Part shown: one piece after another, positions 4,334-45,593 of the stretch | Layout: every line of letters begins with the position of its first letter | Position numbering within the stretch: position 1 is the stretch's first letter | DNA from: Shinella sp. WSJ-2 | GTDB taxonomy: Bacteria; Pseudomonadota; Alphaproteobacteria; Rhizobiales; Rhizobiaceae | NCBI RefSeq assembly: GCF_003432075.1 | Contig: NZ_QWBU01000001.1 | Coordinates: 248,001-312,000 of the forward strand | Length of the DNA stretch: 64,000 nt | Direction: 5' to 3' | The notes under the pieces: model-generated | What the model saw: only the letters and a program-made list of their open reading frames with translations | What the model was told of the DNA's origin: nothing | Database searches by the model: none | Program-made: the position numbers and the translations under genes

Positions 4334-4446
4334 GATCGCCCCTCGCCCTGCCTTGCCAGATAACGGCCGGAGGCGGCCGCAAATTCGTTTCCCTTTTGTA
4401 CTCAAAACCCCTTTTCTTTCGGCATGACTCTCTCCATATTCCGCAC

Positions 4447-7647
<3,201 letters not shown>

Positions 7648-7659
7648 CCGTATTCATTC

Positions 7660-9564
7660 CTACATTCGCCTAGCGGTATCTATTATCTGATCCAAGACCC
7701 GAAAATTGATGTCAGACGCTCTTGCCCTTAGCAAGAATGCACTGACAACCGCAGGCGTCTTTAGTGCATCGGTCCGGCTCAAGCCGAAATCATCACATAC
7801 ACGAATCATGAATTCGTGATATCGGTCTCCAGTTGTTGCCTCCAGATAGCTTTCCAAATTTCCGTCAAAACACGAATATAGATCGGAAACACCTACAGGA
7901 AAATCTTCTGGATCATTCACACCACATATAATTTGTATATTTCTATTTCTTTTCGCCGATGCTTTTTGATCGGCAGCTGCGCTGTCATTGTCGAATACAA
8001 CGTGAACAGGAATACCAAGAGCTCTAAATGCGAAAAGGGGCTTGTCAATTTTGGTCTTTCCGCCCACCTCAATTATCGAAATCCCCTCCCGATGCGCAGA
8101 GCTATTATCAAGTAGCAATGCAGCTTCTAATATTGCTTTATCAGAAACTCCTTCTACAAGTATAATCTTCTCAGCAAGAAACCCTTCAGATACTTCACGA
8201 TTAAAGATGTGCAGTCCTGCCGAGAACGCCTCATCACTAAGAGGCCTAGCTGCGCCTATCACTGCGGCCATTCCACTACTAAAATCAGATATTGAAAGAG
8301 ATTTTACGTGCGTAGCAACGTCTTCTAAACCGACCCTCTTCGAGATAATTCTGATGTTCGATATTTCCTTTATTGAAACGAATTTTTCAGAATGCGTGGC
8401 AAAAATTACCTGAATTCGAATCCCGCTTTGGCGATTAAAATCCGCCGAGATTTCCTTAAAAGCATCATAAAACAGAGCTTGCTTTATAGGATGCTGGTAT
8501 ATTTCCGGCTCTTCAATCAAAAGAATAATATCACTTTGAGCCTCAGAAAATTCTAGTGCCTCCGCGCCGTTGGATTTCCCAGCGTGCTCCTCCGCTAGAA
8601 ATTGAACTAAGGAGAAAAAAATAGCGCGCTGCAACCCATGCCCGACATCCGCCACATCAACCTTCAGCCCCCTGTGGACAACATTTATTAATGGACTCGG
8701 AAATGTTACATTTATTTCGTTCGCTTTATTTAAATCAGCAATTAAGTTCGTATCAGAGTAATACCTCGATACAGCGCTCGTAAGCCGGTCACTGATCCCG
8801 GCCAGCTGCGGGACACTTGTCGGATCTGAGAGTTCAGCTATCCTCCTGTTCGCAAGAGCGATGAACTCAGTGAATTCACTCTTGTTTTCAAATGTTTGCT
8901 TGACGATTTCACTAAGAAGACCAACAACAGGACTACGCTTCGCATCACTTGTCTCTTCAGAGGCGTCTTTAACAGCAGGAACAAGCCTTACCGAGGTCTT
9001 CTTTTTTAGCTTACCGTTCGCAACATTTTTTGCGCCAAAGAACCCTTTGATTTTCTTAAAATCAAGCTCTGAAGGGTGTTCACGCTCCCAAGCGCGAAGA
9101 TTCTCCTCCATTTCTTCACCGGTTGCAGCACCTAAGTCACTAAACCTCTTTCGAAGATCGGCATATATTGATCTCTTTTTAGTTCCGTTGTTTTCATTTC
9201 TAAACTCTTCAAAGGCCGGGTTCACATCAGCATATACGGCGTATTCTCCCGTCTCTTGTGCCACCCCTCCAAATTCTCTAACTATATGAAGTCGACCGCC
9301 TTTTACGGAATTTCCAAATTCTTTGACTTCTTCTGGCGTTAACTTCTCGAATTCTATTGAGATCGAGATTGTGCGCGCTTGATCATGCATATAATAATCG
9401 GCCGCTGCTACCTTCGCAGCGGCATCAAAAAATAGATCAATCGCCTTTAGAACGGTAGATTTTCCGCAGTTATTGGCGCCCACCAAAGAAGTTAATTTTT
9501 CGAAATCGATTTCCAAACGTTCAATTGAACGAAAATTTTCTAGTGATACTTTCGCTATCTGCAT
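7660..9564 (-). CDS. OLD-family ATPase with TOPRIM nuclease domain
   Basis: The 634-residue protein starts MQIAKVSLENFRSIERLEID, typical of SMC/RecF-like and OLD ATPases. Walker A GANNCGKST is at residues 29-37, a Walker B-like ILLIEEPEIYQHP lies in the middle, and a C-terminal TOPRIM domain carries ILVEGVSDKA (Glu about 471) and VFDND (Asp about 525 and 527). OLD (overcoming lysogenization defect) proteins are DNA nucleases in phage defence and related processes. Start ATG 9564 has AGGAGG six bases upstream. Base use is strikingly AT-rich compared with all neighbours, pointing to acquisition. No UvrD-like helicase partner (as in Gabija) or reverse transcriptase is adjacent, so it looks like a single-gene class 1 OLD. 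It ends 12 bases after uvrB, convergently. Confidence 0.88.
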   Translation of the reverse strand: MQIAKVSLENFRSIERLEIDFEKLTSLVGANNCGKSTVLKAIDLFFDAAAKVAAADYYMHDQARTISISIEFEKLTPEEVKEFGNSVKGGRLHIVREFGGVAQETGEYAVYADVNPAFEEFRNENNGTKKRSIYADLRKRFSDLGAATGEEMEENLRAWEREHPSELDFKKIKGFFGAKNVANGKLKKKTSVRLVPAVKDASEETSDAKRSPVVGLLSEIVKQTFENKSEFTEFIALANRRIAELSDPTSVPQLAGISDRLTSAVSRYYSDTNLIADLNKANEINVTFPSPLINVVHRGLKVDVADVGHGLQRAIFFSLVQFLAEEHAGKSNGAEALEFSEAQSDIILLIEEPEIYQHPIKQALFYDAFKEISADFNRQSGIRIQVIFATHSEKFVSIKEISNIRIISKRVGLEDVATHVKSLSISDFSSGMAAVIGAARPLSDEAFSAGLHIFNREVSEGFLAEKIILVEGVSDKAILEAALLLDNSSAHREGISIIEVGGKTKIDKPLFAFRALGIPVHVVFDNDSAAADQKASAKRNRNIQIICGVNDPEDFPVGVSDLYSCFDGNLESYLEATTGDRYHEFMIRVCDDFGLSRTDALKTPAVVSAFLLRARASDINFRVLDQIIDTARRM

Positions 9565-10106
9565 GCGCGCCTCCTGCAAGACGGATGATGCACGATTTAG
9601 TTGTATTTGCAACGCTAAGCCTAGCTTCTGCGATCACCTACACGACGATTTGCGGACATCATTTTCCCCACCCCAATCCCCCATGCCATACTCCCCTCAT
9701 CCCGCCGCGGATACACCGCAAGGCGTTGCGGCGAGGCCGGGTCGGCGCTTTTGGGGAGGGACGGACGTAAGCCGTCTCCAGAAGGGTCTGCGGAAAGTGG
9801 TCTCCCTCCGGCGACATGGGGGAAGCGGCGGGGCGTCGGACCGGGCCCTTCGTTTCATCCCCTGACGGCGCGCCGGATGTGCCTGTGCGGCACGCAAGGG
9901 GGCTGGGACTGGCGGATGCGTCGGCATCGTCCGCCGGAGCGGTGTCTTCCCGGGAAAGGCGAAACTCTTTCCGTCCGGGCCGGGCTCGATGGAGAGTTCT
10001 GCGCGGATGTCAAAACCGGCCAAAGGCCCGCCCCGGAAACCGACGGCAAACCGCCGCCAATCCAGCCTTTGCAGAGAGACCGGAGTCGCAGGCAAAAACC
10101 GCTGAA

Positions 10107-10164
10107 CGGGGCGCTGAAAGGTGTCACATCTATAACTTTTGACGAGACAGCTTTGAGCGCCCCG
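10107..10164. repeat. Inverted repeat, 14-base arms, 30-base loop
   Basis: The left arm CGGGGCGCTGAAAG (10107-10120) pairs with CTTTGAGCGCCCCG (10151-10164) with one mismatch. The loop is conspicuously AT-richer than its surroundings and includes ATCTATAACTTTTGACG. There is no T-run on either side, so it is not a standard terminator. Confidence 0.8.
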
Positions 10165-10199
10165 TCCGAAGCCTGATCCAGACCCCGGCGTTTCACGCG

Positions 10200-10222
10200 C
10201 GGGACGGTTTTCGCGCGTCCCG
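10200..10222. repeat. Short hairpin in intergenic DNA
   Basis: CGGGACG and CGTCCCG flank the nine-base loop GTTTTCGCG, forming a seven-pair stem about 120 bases before the 10342 start codon. Function unknown. Confidence 0.5.
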
Positions 10223-10341
10223 TCGAGCGGCAGGCCCAAAGGCGGTGCCCGGCGACGGCCGATCCGGCCCCGCGAAAACCAGCCCGGATGCCACGCGCCG
10301 GGCGCACCGTCCGCCTTCCCTTCCCGAAAACAGGAGTCCCC

Positions 10342-10764
10342 ATGCCCTGCGAACCCCTCCCACTGAGCCGCCCGCTGCTTGCCCGCACCGCCGAAATGCT
10401 GGCTATCCCGGAGCGCATCTGCCGCCGTCGCGACTGCCGGCGCCGGCATCGCTGCAACTGGTTCTTCCGTGCGACGCAGCAGCCCTGCTGCCTTGCCAAT
10501 CTCGACGCCGACCAGCGCCGCCTCTTTGATGAACTGGCGCAGACCGTGGCGGATGCCGAGCATTTCGGCTATCTCGCGAGCAAGATCACGATGAGCTCGC
10601 CCTATCGCGAGACGCGCGCCCTTCAGGACGCCGCCGTCGAGACCGCCCATGCGCTCGTTTCCGGCCGCAAGCGAAAGGCCTTTCGCGCCTTCGAGAAAAT
10701 GCGCGCCGCGCAGCCCGCACCAAAATACGACGGAGAGGAGCCGCCGCTGCCGAAGCACTGGTGA
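10342..10764 (+). CDS. Conserved-looking cysteine-rich small protein, function unknown
   Basis: The 140-residue protein begins at ATG 10342 with CAGGAG six bases upstream. The N-terminal third contains clustered cysteines (C27, C32, C38, C49, C50) among arginines in ICRRRDCRRRHRCNWFF, suggesting metal or nucleic-acid binding. The remainder is a helical-looking region ending KYDGEEPPLPKHW. I believe similar proteins exist across Rhizobiales but cannot name a family or function. It is convergent with the J-domain gene, the two stops being six bases apart. Codon use is like that of chromosomal neighbours, unlike the OLD gene. Confidence 0.7.
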   Translation: MPCEPLPLSRPLLARTAEMLAIPERICRRRDCRRRHRCNWFFRATQQPCCLANLDADQRRLFDELAQTVADAEHFGYLASKITMSSPYRETRALQDAAVETAHALVSGRKRKAFRAFEKMRAAQPAPKYDGEEPPLPKHW

Positions 10765-10770
10765 ACGGGC

Positions 10771-11376
10771 CTATTCGGCCGCCTCGCCCTTGACGAGCAC
10801 AGGCGCGGGATCGAGCGCGGCGGCCAGTTCGTAGGAATAGCCTTCCAGCATGGCATAGGCCTGCTCGATGGACTGGATCTGGGTCTCGGCATTGCGGATC
10901 GCCTCGGCGATCGATTGCGAGCGGGCGCGCAGCATGGAGCCCAAAAAGTCCGTGCCGGCCTTGCGGCCGAGGCGGTCGATATGCTGGCGCACGCGGTTGC
11001 GGTGGCGCTCCAGCTCCAGGATGTGGAAGCGGCTCTTGACGATATCGTCTGAGAGTTTTCGGCGCATCGCCGCCAGCGGATCGAAGCTGCCCGGCTCGCG
11101 CTCGTCGAGGATGACGTCGTTGACCAGCGGTTCCAGCAGCATCAGGCCCTTCAGGTCGCGCGGGTCGGCGAGCTGCGGGTCGAAGCCGGTGTCGTCGAAG
11201 ACCTTGCGGCGCACCGGGTCGCGCAGCAGGTCGTAGCAGGCCTGCAGGCGGGCGAACTGGTCGGCATCGCCGCCCGAATCGGGATGCATGCCCTTCGCGG
11301 CCTTGCGATAGGCAGCCTTGACCGCGTTGTCGTCTGCATCGCGCTCCAGTCCGAGCATGGTGTAGGGATCGATCAC
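10771..11376 (-). CDS. J-domain (DnaJ-like) protein
   Basis: This 201-residue protein has an N-terminal J domain: DPYTMLGLERDADDNAVKAA, then AYRKAAKGMHPDSGG with the essential HPD motif, then YDLLRDPVRRKVFDDTGFD. The remaining residues lack the Gly/Phe and zinc-finger regions of true DnaJ and form a helical tail. It probably recruits and stimulates a DnaK-type chaperone for a specific client. The start is taken as GTG 11376 with AGGTG about seven bases upstream; ATG 11358 inside the J domain is the alternative. It lies downstream of dusA in the same direction with 107 bases between, so it may be cotranscribed or have its own promoter. Confidence 0.85.
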   Translation of the reverse strand: MIDPYTMLGLERDADDNAVKAAYRKAAKGMHPDSGGDADQFARLQACYDLLRDPVRRKVFDDTGFDPQLADPRDLKGLMLLEPLVNDVILDEREPGSFDPLAAMRRKLSDDIVKSRFHILELERHRNRVRQHIDRLGRKAGTDFLGSMLRARSQSIAEAIRNAETQIQSIEQAYAMLEGYSYELAAALDPAPVLVKGEAAE

Positions 11377-11483
11377 GCAGGCACCTGTTGTTCTTCGAAT
11401 GCGTCGTTCGTTGTTTACGCCGTTTTCCGACCCCGAGGGGACGAAATTGTGGTCACGCCGCGACGATGCACAGAAAGCGCTAG

Positions 11484-12560
11484 CTACTCCGCCGCGTCGC
11501 GCGCCTCGCCCCGCGCCGAGAGCACTGCGGCAAAGGCATTGGCAATCACCTCCGGCCCCGCCCCTGGCTTGGTGGCATCGGTGGAGAGGATCTGCCGGTA
11601 GCGCCGCACGCCCGGAAAGCCCTGGAACAGCCCGACCATATGCCGCGTGACATGCGCCACCCGCCCGCCCCGGGCGATCACCTCGGCCGCATAGGCCACC
11701 ATCGCATCCCGCACCGCCTCCCACCGCTCGACGGGAAGCGCCTGCGGATTGGAGATAGCGCCGGATGGCTGGCCTCCCGTCAGGGGATGCGGAAAAAGAT
11801 CATCCACGCCGGTGAGAACACCGCTATCCTGATAGGCGGCTCGGCCAAGCATGACACCGTCAAGCCCGTCCATCTCTTCGACAGCCTGACTCAAAGTATG
11901 AAGCCCGCCGTTCAGGCCGATGAAAAGACCGGGATTTTCGCTTTTAAGCCGGCGCACCAGACCGTAGTCCAGCGGCGGGATATCGCGGTTCTCCTTCGGC
12001 GACAGGCCTTGCAGCCACGCCTTGCGCGCATGGACCCAGACGGCATCCGTACCCGCAGCTTTCACGCGGGAGACAAGATCGCGCAGCGCCACCTCGGGGT
12101 CCTGGTCATCGACGCCGATGCGGCATTTCACCGTGACGGGAATGGCCACCGCCGCCTTCATCGCCGCCACGCAATCGGCCACGAGGTCCGGCTCACGCAT
12201 CAGGCAGGCACCAAAGGTGCCGGATTGCACGCGGTCCGAGGGGCAGCCGACATTGAGGTTGATCTCGGCATAGCCGAACGCCTCGCCGATCCGCGCCGCC
12301 TCGGCAAGCTTCCGCGGATCATTGCCGCCGAGCTGCAAGGCGACGGGCTGCTCCACGGCATCGAAGCCCAGCAGCCGCTCGCGATTGCCGCGCAGGATGG
12401 CATCGGCGACGATCATCTCGGTGAAGAGCAGCGCATGCTGGGTGAGCTGCCGCGCAAACACGCGATAGTGCCGGTCACTCCAGTCGATCATCGGCGCGGT
12501 GGCGAAAATCTTCGTCTCCGCGGTCACGGCCTGGCTGTAGAATGTCGCTGCGTTCGTCAT
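11484..12560 (-). CDS. dusA: tRNA-dihydrouridine synthase A
   Basis: DusA reduces specific uridines (U20/U20a in E. coli) of tRNA to dihydrouridine with FMN and NADPH. The sequence shows FATAPMIDWSDRHYR near residue 20, the FMN-binding TIM barrel, and EINLNVGCPSDRVQSGTFGA with the catalytic cysteine. HARKAWLQGLSPKENRDIPP and GLNGGLHT are typical of the DusA branch. The encoded length is about 358 residues from ATG 12560; an ATG four codons upstream is equally possible. Its start faces the gamma-carbonic anhydrase gene across about 110 bases. Confidence 0.95.
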   Translation of the reverse strand: MTNAATFYSQAVTAETKIFATAPMIDWSDRHYRVFARQLTQHALLFTEMIVADAILRGNRERLLGFDAVEQPVALQLGGNDPRKLAEAARIGEAFGYAEINLNVGCPSDRVQSGTFGACLMREPDLVADCVAAMKAAVAIPVTVKCRIGVDDQDPEVALRDLVSRVKAAGTDAVWVHARKAWLQGLSPKENRDIPPLDYGLVRRLKSENPGLFIGLNGGLHTLSQAVEEMDGLDGVMLGRAAYQDSGVLTGVDDLFPHPLTGGQPSGAISNPQALPVERWEAVRDAMVAYAAEVIARGGRVAHVTRHMVGLFQGFPGVRRYRQILSTDATKPGAGPEVIANAFAAVLSARGEARDAAE

Positions 12561-12669
12561 GGCCGGGCTCATACTCCATCCCATCGGCAAAAACCACCCT
12601 TCACCCTTTCCCCGCCGCGGCGGGCGGGTGCTAGAGTGGGGTCGAGGAATCAAACCGCCGGAGGAAACC

Positions 12670-13200
12670 ATGCCGCTTTACGCCCTCGACGACCGCGCCC
12701 CGACACTGCCCGCCGACGACCGCTACTGGGTGGCGCCGGATGCCAATGTCATCGGCAAGGTCATCATCGGCGAAGATGTCGGCATCTGGTTCGGCGCCAC
12801 GCTGCGCGGCGACAACGAGCCGATCATCCTCGGCGCGCGCTCCAATATCCAGGAGGGCGTGGTGGTGCATACGGACCCTGGAAAACCCGTCGTCATCGGC
12901 GAAGGCTGCACGATCGGCCACAGCGCCATCATCCACGGCTGCACGATCGGCAACAATTCGCTCATCGGCATGGGCGCGACGGTGCTGAACGGCGCGGTCA
13001 TCGGCAACAACTGCCTCGTCGGCGCCAATGCGCTGGTGACGGAAGGCAAGGTCTTTCCGGACAATTCGCTGATCGTCGGTTCGCCGGCAAAGGCCATCCG
13101 CACGCTGGACGCGGAGGCTATCGAGGGCCTGAAGCGCTCGGCCGAAAGCTATGTGCGCAACTGGCAGCGCTTCAAGAAGGGTCTCAAGCCGATCGGTTAG
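12670..13200 (+). CDS. Gamma-carbonic anhydrase-like hexapeptide-repeat protein
   Basis: The 176-residue protein is a left-handed beta-helix of hexapeptide repeats (IGKVIIGEDVGIWFGATLRG, then IGHSAIIHGCTIGNNSLIG). Three histidines in the positions of the metal site (about H67, H84 and H89) match the YrdA/CaiE/PaaY group of gamma-carbonic anhydrases. These trimeric enzymes bind Zn, Fe or Co; many homologues have weak or unknown activity. GAGG lies five bases before ATG 12670. The stop overlaps that of zur by four bases, convergently. Activity is likely but not certain. Confidence 0.88.
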   Translation: MPLYALDDRAPTLPADDRYWVAPDANVIGKVIIGEDVGIWFGATLRGDNEPIILGARSNIQEGVVVHTDPGKPVVIGEGCTIGHSAIIHGCTIGNNSLIGMGATVLNGAVIGNNCLVGANALVTEGKVFPDNSLIVGSPAKAIRTLDAEAIEGLKRSAESYVRNWQRFKKGLKPIG

Positions 13201-43707: not shown

Positions 43708-44418
43708 TCACGCCGCGATTGGCCCTCGTGTTTCAAGCACGTCCTGCAAGACGAGGATGGCACCCAGCACGTTTCCGGCGGCCGACATGCACGGCGTCAT
43801 GCGGCAGCGCGTGATCGCCGAACCCCTTCGCGGCGACAGATAATCGTATTCGACAATCTCGCCGGCAAAGCAGCGGTCTAGATGTCGCTTCACGCGCCCC
43901 TCGAAGCGCTGAATGCCGATAAATTCTACGACGTGGCGGCCGACGAGATCGATCGGTTTCTCACTGAAACTGCTCGCATTCAGCGGGTTAGAGTAGAGGT
44001 AACGGTAATCTGTCGTGATGACCGCCACGCGGTCGGGCAGACTGTCGAGGATCGCCTCGTTGATGAGGCCATCCTCCATCACGCGCGGCGACATGACGGG
44101 GCGGCCGGTGTCGGGCAATTCCACGCGAAAAGGTCGCGCGGCCTCTTCAGTGCCGAAATAGCGATCCAGCAGAATTTTGAAATTGTGTGCCTGCCGGAGC
44201 ACGCAGGCCTTGTCCTCCGCCTCTTCGCGAAGAAGATCCACCACGAACTGGAACTGGATCTTGAGCTCGGAAGCGTCTGTCGCCTCCTTGTGCAGTACGG
44301 CTGCCAGAGCCGGTTCGATTTCCCTGTCCAGCATGGAAATGAGTCTCTCATTCCCAGTCTTTATTGCATGCTGGAGTTGCGAATACTTAAACCAGAACAA
44401 CTCTACAAGAGCTTTCAA
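43708..44418 (-). CDS. PAS-domain protein without output domain
   Basis: The 236-residue protein has an N-terminal helical region (QHAIKTGNERLISMLDREIE) and a C-terminal PAS domain. The PAS domain runs from about residue 120 (AILDSLPDRVAVITTDYRYL, then LVGRHVVEFIGIQRFEGRVK) to GNVLGAILVLQDV. No kinase, GGDEF or DNA-binding domain follows, so it would signal through partners or act as a ligand sensor. The start is TTG 44418 with GGGAG six bases upstream; an overlapping ATG is followed by an immediate stop. It converges on the hemerythrin gene, the stops being three bases apart. Partner unknown. Confidence 0.78.
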   Translation of the reverse strand: MKALVELFWFKYSQLQHAIKTGNERLISMLDREIEPALAAVLHKEATDASELKIQFQFVVDLLREEAEDKACVLRQAHNFKILLDRYFGTEEAARPFRVELPDTGRPVMSPRVMEDGLINEAILDSLPDRVAVITTDYRYLYSNPLNASSFSEKPIDLVGRHVVEFIGIQRFEGRVKRHLDRCFAGEIVEYDYLSPRRGSAITRCRMTPCMSAAGNVLGAILVLQDVLETRGPIAA

Positions 44419-44629
44419 TTCATGCTCCCTGAATTGCTGAAATCTACAGCAATTTGATCACTTACATTATTCAATCTGTCCGGAAATAAGATACGATTTT
44501 GATCGTCACCCCTCTGAATCCCGCTGTCCAAAGCGCTTACATTAGCGAAATGGTAACAGCGCGGGGGAGGATGTCAAACCCATATTTGATAAAATTACGT
44601 GTTTCGCAAATAATGAACACGTTCAAAAA

Positions 44630-44660
44630 TGAGTGCAAAGAAAAAAATCATAAGCACTCA
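44630..44660 (-). terminator. Terminator-like hairpin at the end of lpxXL
   Basis: On the minus strand TGAGTGC and GCACTCA enclose a 17-base loop that itself has a T-run, followed by TTTTTG. The stem overlaps the lpxXL stop codon. The stem is modest, so efficiency is uncertain. Confidence 0.5.
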
Positions 44661-45593
44661 AGTAATAAGGGTGCGCTTGATGTTCCAGCGGTCATGATAC
44701 CAGAGCCACTGGCCTGGATATTCACGCACCCACTGCTCGACCTTGTCATTCAGCATCTGCGCGGTCGCCTCGACATCTACGGCGCCGTTTTCCTTGCGCG
44801 GGATGTCCATTGCCGGTTCCAGCTCCAGCCGATAGCGATTGCCCGGCAGGCGGATACAGCGCGCCGGATAGACCTCGCAATTGAACTGACGCACCAGCTT
44901 GGCCAGCAGCGGATTGGTCTGCACGTCGCGCCCGAAGAATTTCGTCGGCAGGCCCTTGGTGAATTTCTGGTCGACAAGCACGCCCACCGGCCCACCGGCA
45001 TCGAGCTTGCGCGCCAGCGTGAAGGAGGATCCGGCATGCGACGGCACGAGATGCCCCATGCGGGCCCGGCGAAATTCGAAAACCTTGTCGGCGACATAAG
45101 GATTGTTCGGTGGGCGGAACAGCACCGTCACATCCAGCCCGAAGGCCGCGCCGGCCACCGGCAGCAGCTCGAAATTGCCGCTATGGGCGGTGAAGACGAT
45201 GAAGGGGCGCGGATTGTCGCGCAGATCCACGAAAAGCGGGATGCCGGACACCTCGATGCGGCCCGGCGTCGTCCTTTCCGGATCGAAGTCGAACAACTTG
45301 TCGAGGAAGACATATTCGGCGGCCAGCCGGCCCATATTGCCCCAGGCGTCGAGCGCGATCGCCTCGATCTCGGCCTCGGATTTTTCCGGGAAGGCATTGC
45401 GCAGATTGGTCAGCGTCAGCTTGTGCCGGCTCGTCTTCGGGCCGATCCAGCGCACGAGGCGGTCGGCGAAGTTAATCGCTCCGTCCGCGGGAAACAGTTT
45501 GAGAAGATTGAGCAGGCCGAAGGCGAACTGCGCCACCAGCCAGTCCTTGGTGTTGCGCAGCGCCAGGACGAGGCGTGTGACGAGCATCTTCAT
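44658..45593 (-). CDS. lpxXL: Lipid A very-long-chain fatty acid acyltransferase LpxXL
   Basis: The 311-residue protein belongs to the HtrB/LpxL lauroyl-acyltransferase family. FTAHSGNFELLPVAGAAFGL carries the catalytic His and Glu, and VLVDQKFTKGLPTKFFGRDV the second conserved block. A hydrophobic N-terminus anchors it to the inner membrane. LpxXL transfers the 27-hydroxyoctacosanoyl chain from AcpXL to lipid A in rhizobia. It is last in the acpXL-fabZ-fabF2-fabF1-adh-lpxXL cluster, four bases after the dehydrogenase gene, which fixes this identity over ordinary LpxL. Confidence 0.93.
   Translation of the reverse strand: MKMLVTRLVLALRNTKDWLVAQFAFGLLNLLKLFPADGAINFADRLVRWIGPKTSRHKLTLTNLRNAFPEKSEAEIEAIALDAWGNMGRLAAEYVFLDKLFDFDPERTTPGRIEVSGIPLFVDLRDNPRPFIVFTAHSGNFELLPVAGAAFGLDVTVLFRPPNNPYVADKVFEFRRARMGHLVPSHAGSSFTLARKLDAGGPVGVLVDQKFTKGLPTKFFGRDVQTNPLLAKLVRQFNCEVYPARCIRLPGNRYRLELEPAMDIPRKENGAVDVEATAQMLNDKVEQWVREYPGQWLWYHDRWNIKRTLIT

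Follow-up and report, generated by a model that had tools for sequence, protein, structure and literature searches.

A lone OLD-family nuclease gene behind uvrB in Shinella sp. WSJ-2 is probably one allele of an exchangeable defence slot bordered by a candidate structured RNA

A gene for a stand-alone OLD-family ATPase/TOPRIM nuclease lies directly behind uvrB in a stretch of 64 000 nucleotides of Shinella sp. WSJ-2 (contig NZ_QWBU01000001.1, positions 248 001 to 312 000), referred to here as the window; the gene occupies positions 7660..9564 on the minus strand. Comparison with related genomes indicates that it is probably one allele of a replacement-type defence slot of the Rhizobiaceae, running from uvrB to a dnaJ-like gene and dusA, in which cassettes would be swapped by recombination in the flanks. 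Among 21 Shinella genomes, the interval between uvrB and dnaJ/dusA carried one AT-rich cassette of one to three genes in 18, and the cassettes were of 15 kinds. Features of a hotspot were present, with flanks kept in nearly all genomes, unrelated cargo in close relatives and many defence genes. The right edge of the slot in the window is a non-coding element of about 545 nt (9661..10205, plus strand), a candidate structured RNA.

Results

Genomes are given codes of the form G### and loci codes of the form L###, G000 being the genome of the window. The slot was compared in the 21 Shinella genomes (that of the window and 20 others) and in 40 further Rhizobiaceae genomes, and occupancy was scored by an AT-rich run (600 bp, GC<0.48). 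In 17 of the 20 other Shinella genomes, as well as in the window, such a run lay at the uvrB stop or close to it. uvrB was present in all 21 genomes, and a dnaJ-like gene was located behind it in 19, being not found there in G007 and G017. The intervals of G001 (323 bp) and G002 (47 bp) were nearly empty, and that of G006 held 1.5 kb of mostly high-GC DNA.

Cargo was scanned with PADLOC and Pfam in 16 of the 18 occupied Shinella genomes, G015 and G018 lying outside the scan. The best PADLOC E value was 1e-20 or lower in nine of these 16. PARIS AriAB was found in G013 (9e-203) and, without its N-terminal part, in G004 (4e-169, locus L104); PDC-M11A with HTH/ASCH in G005 (1.9e-116); AbiLi with RloB in G007 (1.2e-88); AIPR/AbiU split over two open reading frames (ORFs) in G010 (3.8e-51, L100); an RT-TIR type XII retron in G019 (7e-160); SIR2_2 and a kinase in G014 (1.5e-24); and GmrSD_N/NsnA in G003 (1.5e-26). 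G016 carried a ParA-like and a HEPN gene by Pfam only, and OLD was the cargo of G000 and of G018, the latter assigned by identity. Cargo without a confident match was present in G008, G009 and G015 (one shared gene), G011, G012, G017 and G020. No integrase or transposase domain was detected by Pfam in 20 Shinella cargo ORFs; att repeats were not systematically searched for, and enzymes acting in trans are possible. Some slots may hold decaying alleles, since AIPR/AbiU is split in G010 and the PARIS N-terminus is gone in G004.

Turnover was most evident where the flanks are closely related. In G003, G005 and G020, three unrelated cargos lay between flanks about 97% identical, and in G000 and G013, with flanks about 92% identical, OLD and PARIS AriAB occupied the same place. 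G013 is a very close relative of the window's genome, its UvrB being 98% identical and the top match of 20. The left edge was sharp, nucleotide homology between close species stopping at the uvrB stop or within 3 nt of it, and on the right homology resumed at the first or second base of the non-coding element (window 9661-9662). Where a Shinella genome lacks the element, similarity did not return until roughly the end of the dnaJ-like gene. On a uvrB tree, 17 cargo states needed 18 parsimony changes; OLD and PARIS each appeared once in the clade of G000 and G013 and once in the sister pair G018 and G004, and G000 was closer to G019 and G009 than to G013.

The original prediction had described an acquired single-gene cargo at a small defence site, and both the 18 intervals with AT-rich cargo and the presence of PARIS in the close relative G013 agree with it. 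The synteny comparison of the uvrB-dusA interval that it proposed turned up alternative cargo in relatives. It had named, as evidence against acquisition, the gene's presence in an unchanged context throughout the close relatives; OLD was instead present in two of the 21 Shinella genomes.

Within the window, the left edge of the slot is the stop codon of uvrB (plus strand, 4396..7647, an ORF from TTG). The OLD ORF runs on the minus strand over 7660-9612 and has 650 codons counted from the TTG at 9612; its true start is probably the ATG at 9564, giving 634 amino acids (aa), because GGAGG directly precedes this codon and the homology of relatives starts near there. OLD and uvrB are convergent, and their stop codons, at 7660 (OLD) and 7647 (uvrB), are separated by 12 nt, as predicted; the lower GC content of OLD was confirmed too. 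The GC content and third-position GC content (GC3) were 0.433 and 0.384 for OLD, 0.661 and 0.864 for uvrB and 0.659 and 0.783 for the dusA ORF, with a GC content of 0.631 for the window as a whole. By the occupancy criterion, the window contained two low-GC runs, the OLD region and 44100-44750, and control sequence of the same genus, about 600 kb in total, also contained two, of which one (L210) proved to be a cargo; because control sequence is so poor in such runs, that of OLD is not a matter of chance. The run at 44100-44750 has a GC content of 0.477 over 600 bp and is mostly intergenic by eye. To the right of the element lie a small Cys-rich conserved gene (10342..10764, plus strand), a DnaJ-domain-like gene named by eye (ORF 10771..11724, minus strand, true start inside), which forms the right slot edge where the RNA is lacking, and dusA, the conserved outer flank (ORF 11484..12671, minus strand, true start inside; named from an earlier note and by eye). 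The C-terminal tail of UvrB (window 6950-7120) contains a repeated segment, and the length of the uvrB open frame varies among Shinella species.

The slot extended to other genera. Of the 40 further Rhizobiaceae genomes, 18 had an AT-rich run no more than 4 kb from the uvrB stop, often with defence genes, and the remainder of those 40 stretches contained two AT-rich runs. Cargo was scanned in 16 of these 18 occupied genomes (G151 and G162 lying outside, and not every ORF of each being included), and eight of the 16 gave a PADLOC match at 2e-15 or lower. The cargos comprised PDC-S28 (G143), RT-TIR (G033), a retron reverse transcriptase (G022), a type III-A retron PRTase (G068), NsnA/GmrSD (G023), a CapP/RmrA-like protein (G115), a ThsA-like SIR2 with ParA (G101), PDC-S33 (G061) and a NACHT protein (G105).

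Several observations weigh against an exchange of alleles through the flanks. Between G000 and G018, amino-acid identity is 80% for the OLD proteins but reaches 90% for UvrB and 95.5% for the dnaJ-like protein; between G009 and G015, the block made up of the uvrB tail, the cargo and the element shows 84.6% identity, and the rest 83-90%. No case of recent transfer was seen among the genomes compared, since common cargo is no more similar than the flanks. Unrelated slots share an edge at the element's first bases, and recombination in the flanks would not by itself demand one so sharp. As to defence, PADLOC gave no confident match for the cargo of seven of the 16 Shinella genomes scanned, and the match rates are raw ones for cargo ORFs only.

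The element at the right edge was kept at the uvrB slot in 13 of the 21 Shinella genomes, with AT-rich cargo on its left every time. Three more copies (77-79% identity) were found in the genome of the window, and 16 of the 21 Shinella genomes contained at least one copy anywhere. An alignment of 31 copies gave a multibranched fold of 124 pairs with 95.8% of cells paired. Doubly changed cells numbered 195 against 68 in shuffles, and the covariation was 0.228 against 0.137 (s.d. 0.004) in shuffles and at most 0.077 when the fold was slid. As these figures use a fold derived from the same 31-copy alignment, the comparison was repeated on held-out copies. With the fold made from 15 copies and applied to the other 16 (four splits), 90-92% of cells were paired against 43-46% when slid, and 112-144 cells were doubly changed against at most 75 in shuffles. 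A fold from 24 copies outside uvrB sites, applied to seven uvrB copies, gave 87.5% paired against 43-48% slid. RNAalifold with default scoring returned 99 pairs, 27 of them with double changes, and a covariation term of -8.39. The 3' hairpin (helix 17, 10106..10165, plus strand) has 17 pairs, with 97.3% of cells paired. By covariation the element is thus a candidate large structured RNA, presumably transcribed.

The plus strand was favoured by 413 G-U cells against 44 A-C cells, but the fold was itself computed for that strand, which biases the count; the reverse strand folds nearly as well (-296 against -315, shuffles -175). A conserved A+T-rich stretch (9688..9692, plus strand) lies 7-11 nt before the first helix and resembles a -10 box by eye only. 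A scan for a sigma-70 consensus promoter or a T-run terminator for the RNA found none. Rfam 15 gave no family at E<=1 over 7600-11000, and for the element alone four matches at E<=10, the best at 0.84 and all far under the gathering scores. With strict filters, a 90-position covariance model of the 5' part (9697-9786) detected the element in 24 of 199 Rhizobiaceae genomes and 15 of 109 genera, and in an order-wide sample in one of 150 genomes, that of the window itself. The element was absent from phage records and present in 14 plasmid records (Shinella, Rhizobium, Allorhizobium and Neorhizobium). The small Cys-rich gene occurs in 13 of the 21 Shinella genomes, precisely those with the RNA at this place; it was rejected as a partner of the element, since it was found at none of the 41 other element loci inspected. 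The non-uvrB loci L211, L212, L214, L215, L216, L218, L219, L221 and L225 have a second form of the RNA, whose middle module differs (GAAGACGGTGCCGACC...).

Copies outside uvrB sites bear on an alternative of low probability, that the RNA gene is a landmark for insertion or exchange at which trans-acting machinery puts defence cassettes directly 5', comparable to islands at tRNA genes, uvrB being its best-occupied instance. The layout was polar. Low-GC DNA (500 bp, GC<0.50, within 1.5 kb) was looked for at the 74 non-uvrB copies whose flanks were long enough, and lay 5' in 11 and 3' in one (L254); at the uvrB sites of other Shinella it lay 5' in 12 of 12 and 3' in none. A sign test on 11 against one gave a two-sided p of 0.006, the copies being partly orthologous sites and not independent, and the other 63 of the 74 copies had no low-GC DNA 5', which also disposes of the idea that the RNA element is a mobile unit accompanied by cargo in every case. 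Five of the 11 5' cargos had a defence- or toxin-antitoxin-type Pfam domain, namely an OLD-like ATPase in G160 and in G229, SocA_Panacea in G031, BrnT in G163 and putAbiC in G105; these would fit the landmark, but the type was found in those five only. The remaining six were pentapeptide repeats with a weak nucleotidyltransferase match in G009, DUF2971 in G034, an RTX protein in G205 (L281), L267 and L302 without a Pfam match, and L268 without a sizeable ORF.

Two sites repeated the arrangement seen at uvrB. At lepA, the homology of G009, which has cargo, to G018 and G004, which have none, broke at the lepA stop and resumed at the first bases of the element, in line with a landmark; its homology to G019, however, resumed 57 bp ahead of the element. 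At a site between acnA and recR (named by eye), the OLD-like cargo of G160 and the DUF2971 cargo of G034 lay between common flanks and element. In other genera, all seven uvrB sites with a confirmed element were occupied, against 11 of 33 others (p 0.0017); in Shinella, five of the eight uvrB sites without it were occupied all the same, and the association there gave p 0.04. No integrase or excised form was found.

Two further kinds of RNA site were noted. In L271 (G061), an RNA copy has a TniQ-domain gene (5655-7514, minus strand; Pfam 2.6e-12) some 2.6 kb away on its 5' side, and the DNA separating the two includes a low-GC stretch. Where copies lie by thiN-like genes (L157, L202 and L211), the genes on the left vary by species and those on the right are common, and the sites look, by eye, as if rearrangements had occurred at the RNA copies.

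OLD itself was sparsely distributed. Besides G000 it was present in S. yambaruensis (G018; 80% aa identity), place and orientation being alike, and a relative with 57% aa identity adjoins uvrB, convergent with it, in Pararhizobium haloflavum. The other 16 OLD loci examined had no uvrB match, and OLD was mostly lower in GC than its surroundings. A second copy was not found in the genome, the best other match having an E value of 0.025. A phage or plasmid source was discarded, as all relatives were distant: 84 plasmid records showed less than 60% identity, and the phage relatives came from five records, including P2 and KS5. Because OLD stands at the same place in S. yambaruensis and P. haloflavum, the slot is old and reused and not the site of a one-off insertion. 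The shared place and orientation could also mean that OLD was already present in the ancestor of Shinella and survives in two species after loss from the others, but this is improbable in view of the low GC content, of the 19 Shinella genomes without OLD, 16 of which have other cargo in the interval, and of the occurrence of both OLD and PARIS once in each of two separate clades.

The OLD protein gave Pfam matches to AAA_15 (4.7e-44) and OLD-like_TOPRIM (PF20469, 1.1e-16), both passing the cut-offs. The N-terminal ABC ATPase with Walker A, Walker B and H-loop was recognized by Pfam and alignment. In an alignment of 16 sequences the Walker A residues G45, N47, G50, K51 and S52 were invariant, likewise E367-E368-P369-E370, H374 and H407, and so were the TOPRIM residues E487/G488/D491 and D541/D543, in keeping with the full ATPase and TOPRIM set originally predicted. 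K34, E276, H283 and H310 of the Thermus scotoductus (Ts) OLD, given as ATP-site residues in PMC7049728, align to K51, E367, H374 and H407. PADLOC ranked Old first (3.2e-57), followed by AriA (3.1e-47, through the common ATPase domain) and the best GajA model (9.3e-34). No NCBIfam model reached its cut-off, retron_eff_Eco8 scoring 54 bits against a cut-off of 250. The closest sequence in the PDB was 6p74, the Ts Class 1 OLD (7.7e-17), with GajA next (2e-10). An AlphaFold model (pLDDT 83.8) matched 6p74 best by VIA-align (Z 21.8, 473 residues, rmsd 8.7) and also by Foldseek; GajA followed at Z 17.2 and Eco8 OLD at Z 16.6, with SMC and Rad50 heads, which match the ATPase part only, ranking in between. 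From Pfam, PADLOC, the PDB sequence match, the alignment and the structural ranking of the predicted model, the protein is judged to be an intact stand-alone OLD nuclease, nearest to Class 1.

Neighbouring ORFs were judged by eye from the ORF list and translations. No UvrD/PcrA/Rep-like helicase lies next to OLD, in accordance with the predicted lack of a GajB-like partner; the flanks are the convergent uvrB on one side and the element, small gene and dnaJ-like gene on the other, and UvrB is a core protein and not a GajB. The ORFs near 7660-9612 included no recognizable reverse transcriptase. It is therefore very unlikely that OLD works as a unit with the RNA beside it, in the manner of OLD and the non-coding RNA (ncRNA) of retron Eco8: the two are divergent neighbours about 100 nt apart, and the OLDs of some retrons are reported to act with an RNA, but the same RNA borders many unrelated cargos and most of its non-uvrB copies have no low-GC DNA there. 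A role of OLD in nucleotide-excision repair through uvrB, in place of defence, hardly deserves consideration, as adjacency is all that speaks for it, convergent genes are not one transcript, unrelated genes occupy the place in other species and 19 of the 21 Shinella genomes have uvrB without OLD.

Discussion

The gene in the window is unexceptional within a known family of defence genes, and its own function in defence is assumed by homology; the unusual part of the locus is its structured RNA edge. Cassettes of the slot would be exchanged as alleles through ordinary homologous recombination in the conserved flanks, homology being provided by the uvrB tail on the left side and, on the other, by the RNA element, the small gene, the dnaJ-like gene and dusA; conjugation or transduction may assist. 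Mobile elements at dusA may help the slot to move, since a 359-aa ORF beside dusA in S. yambaruensis (L014:3826-4905, about 3 kb from OLD) is tyrosine integrase-like by eye and dusA seems interrupted in G011; a PDB sequence search with the 359-aa ORF gave no match. By analogy with other OLD proteins, an ABC-type ATPase dimer would sense an infection cue and turn on the TOPRIM nuclease, and infected cells would cease to support the phage, the model being P2 Old, which is triggered by RecBC inhibition. YbjD still protected when its Walker A was mutated. PMC13261556 puts stand-alone OLDs at 0.45% of bacterial genomes, calling them rare and little studied; it describes YbjD as protective upon induced expression with a dispensable TOPRIM domain, and P2 Old as cleaving a host tRNA upon RecBC inhibition.

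The RNA may simply supply homology at the right edge, or it may have a specific role. Because of the polarity, and of a layout that recurs at three sites, a modest chance is kept for the latter, in which the 5' ends of a family of RNA genes of about 500 nt in the Rhizobiaceae would mark interchangeable single anti-phage slots (at uvrB, lepA, acnA-recR and others) and the RNA would place, keep or control the cassettes. If so, this would be a system of defence exchange anchored by an RNA gene and distinct from islands at tRNA sites.

For the slot as a whole, once the flanks are recognized, what began as one odd gene becomes a predictable location at which a Shinella genome is expected to carry an AT-rich cassette. 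About half of the cassettes confidently match a known or candidate defence system, and the unmatched cargos listed above are testable candidates for defence. With its sharp edges and structured RNA border, the slot makes integrase-less swapping at defence sites directly testable in soil bacteria. Searches of the literature on defence in rhizobia and on structured or dispersed RNA showed nothing on the locus by title and abstract, and no publication was found that joins uvrB with defence island hotspots.

The protein shares with the Class 1 OLDs (Ts 6p74, phage P2 Old and E. coli YbjD) an ABC ATPase with a TOPRIM domain encoded by a lone gene. At 634 aa it is longer than the Ts protein (525), to which it is 18-21% identical, and YbjD (552), and unlike these relatives it has, in the model, a helical C-terminal stretch past the TOPRIM core; the length criterion of Class 1 (about 50 aa below Class 2) is only an average. 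Gabija GajA, of Class 2, has the same two domains, but a reading as Gabija was rejected, since OLD in the window has no adjoining UvrD-like helicase and the GajA match is the weaker on every measure of sequence and structure. The element resembles the large structured bacterial ncRNAs of Rfam in its multibranched fold of about 500 nt with covariation, and differs in having no family match.

As to the slot, 'replacement islands', short unrelated defence cassettes, are set against additive ones in PMC10250203. Like the replacement-type hotspots of Vibrio and E. coli and cDHS1/2 of P. aeruginosa, the uvrB slot has fixed core flanks and unrelated defence cargo in each genome, and the lack of mobility genes in scanned cargo is a further feature in common. 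It differs in holding one cassette of one to three genes, where cDHS1 has a median of 26 kb, in spanning genera and in having a structured RNA edge in many genomes.

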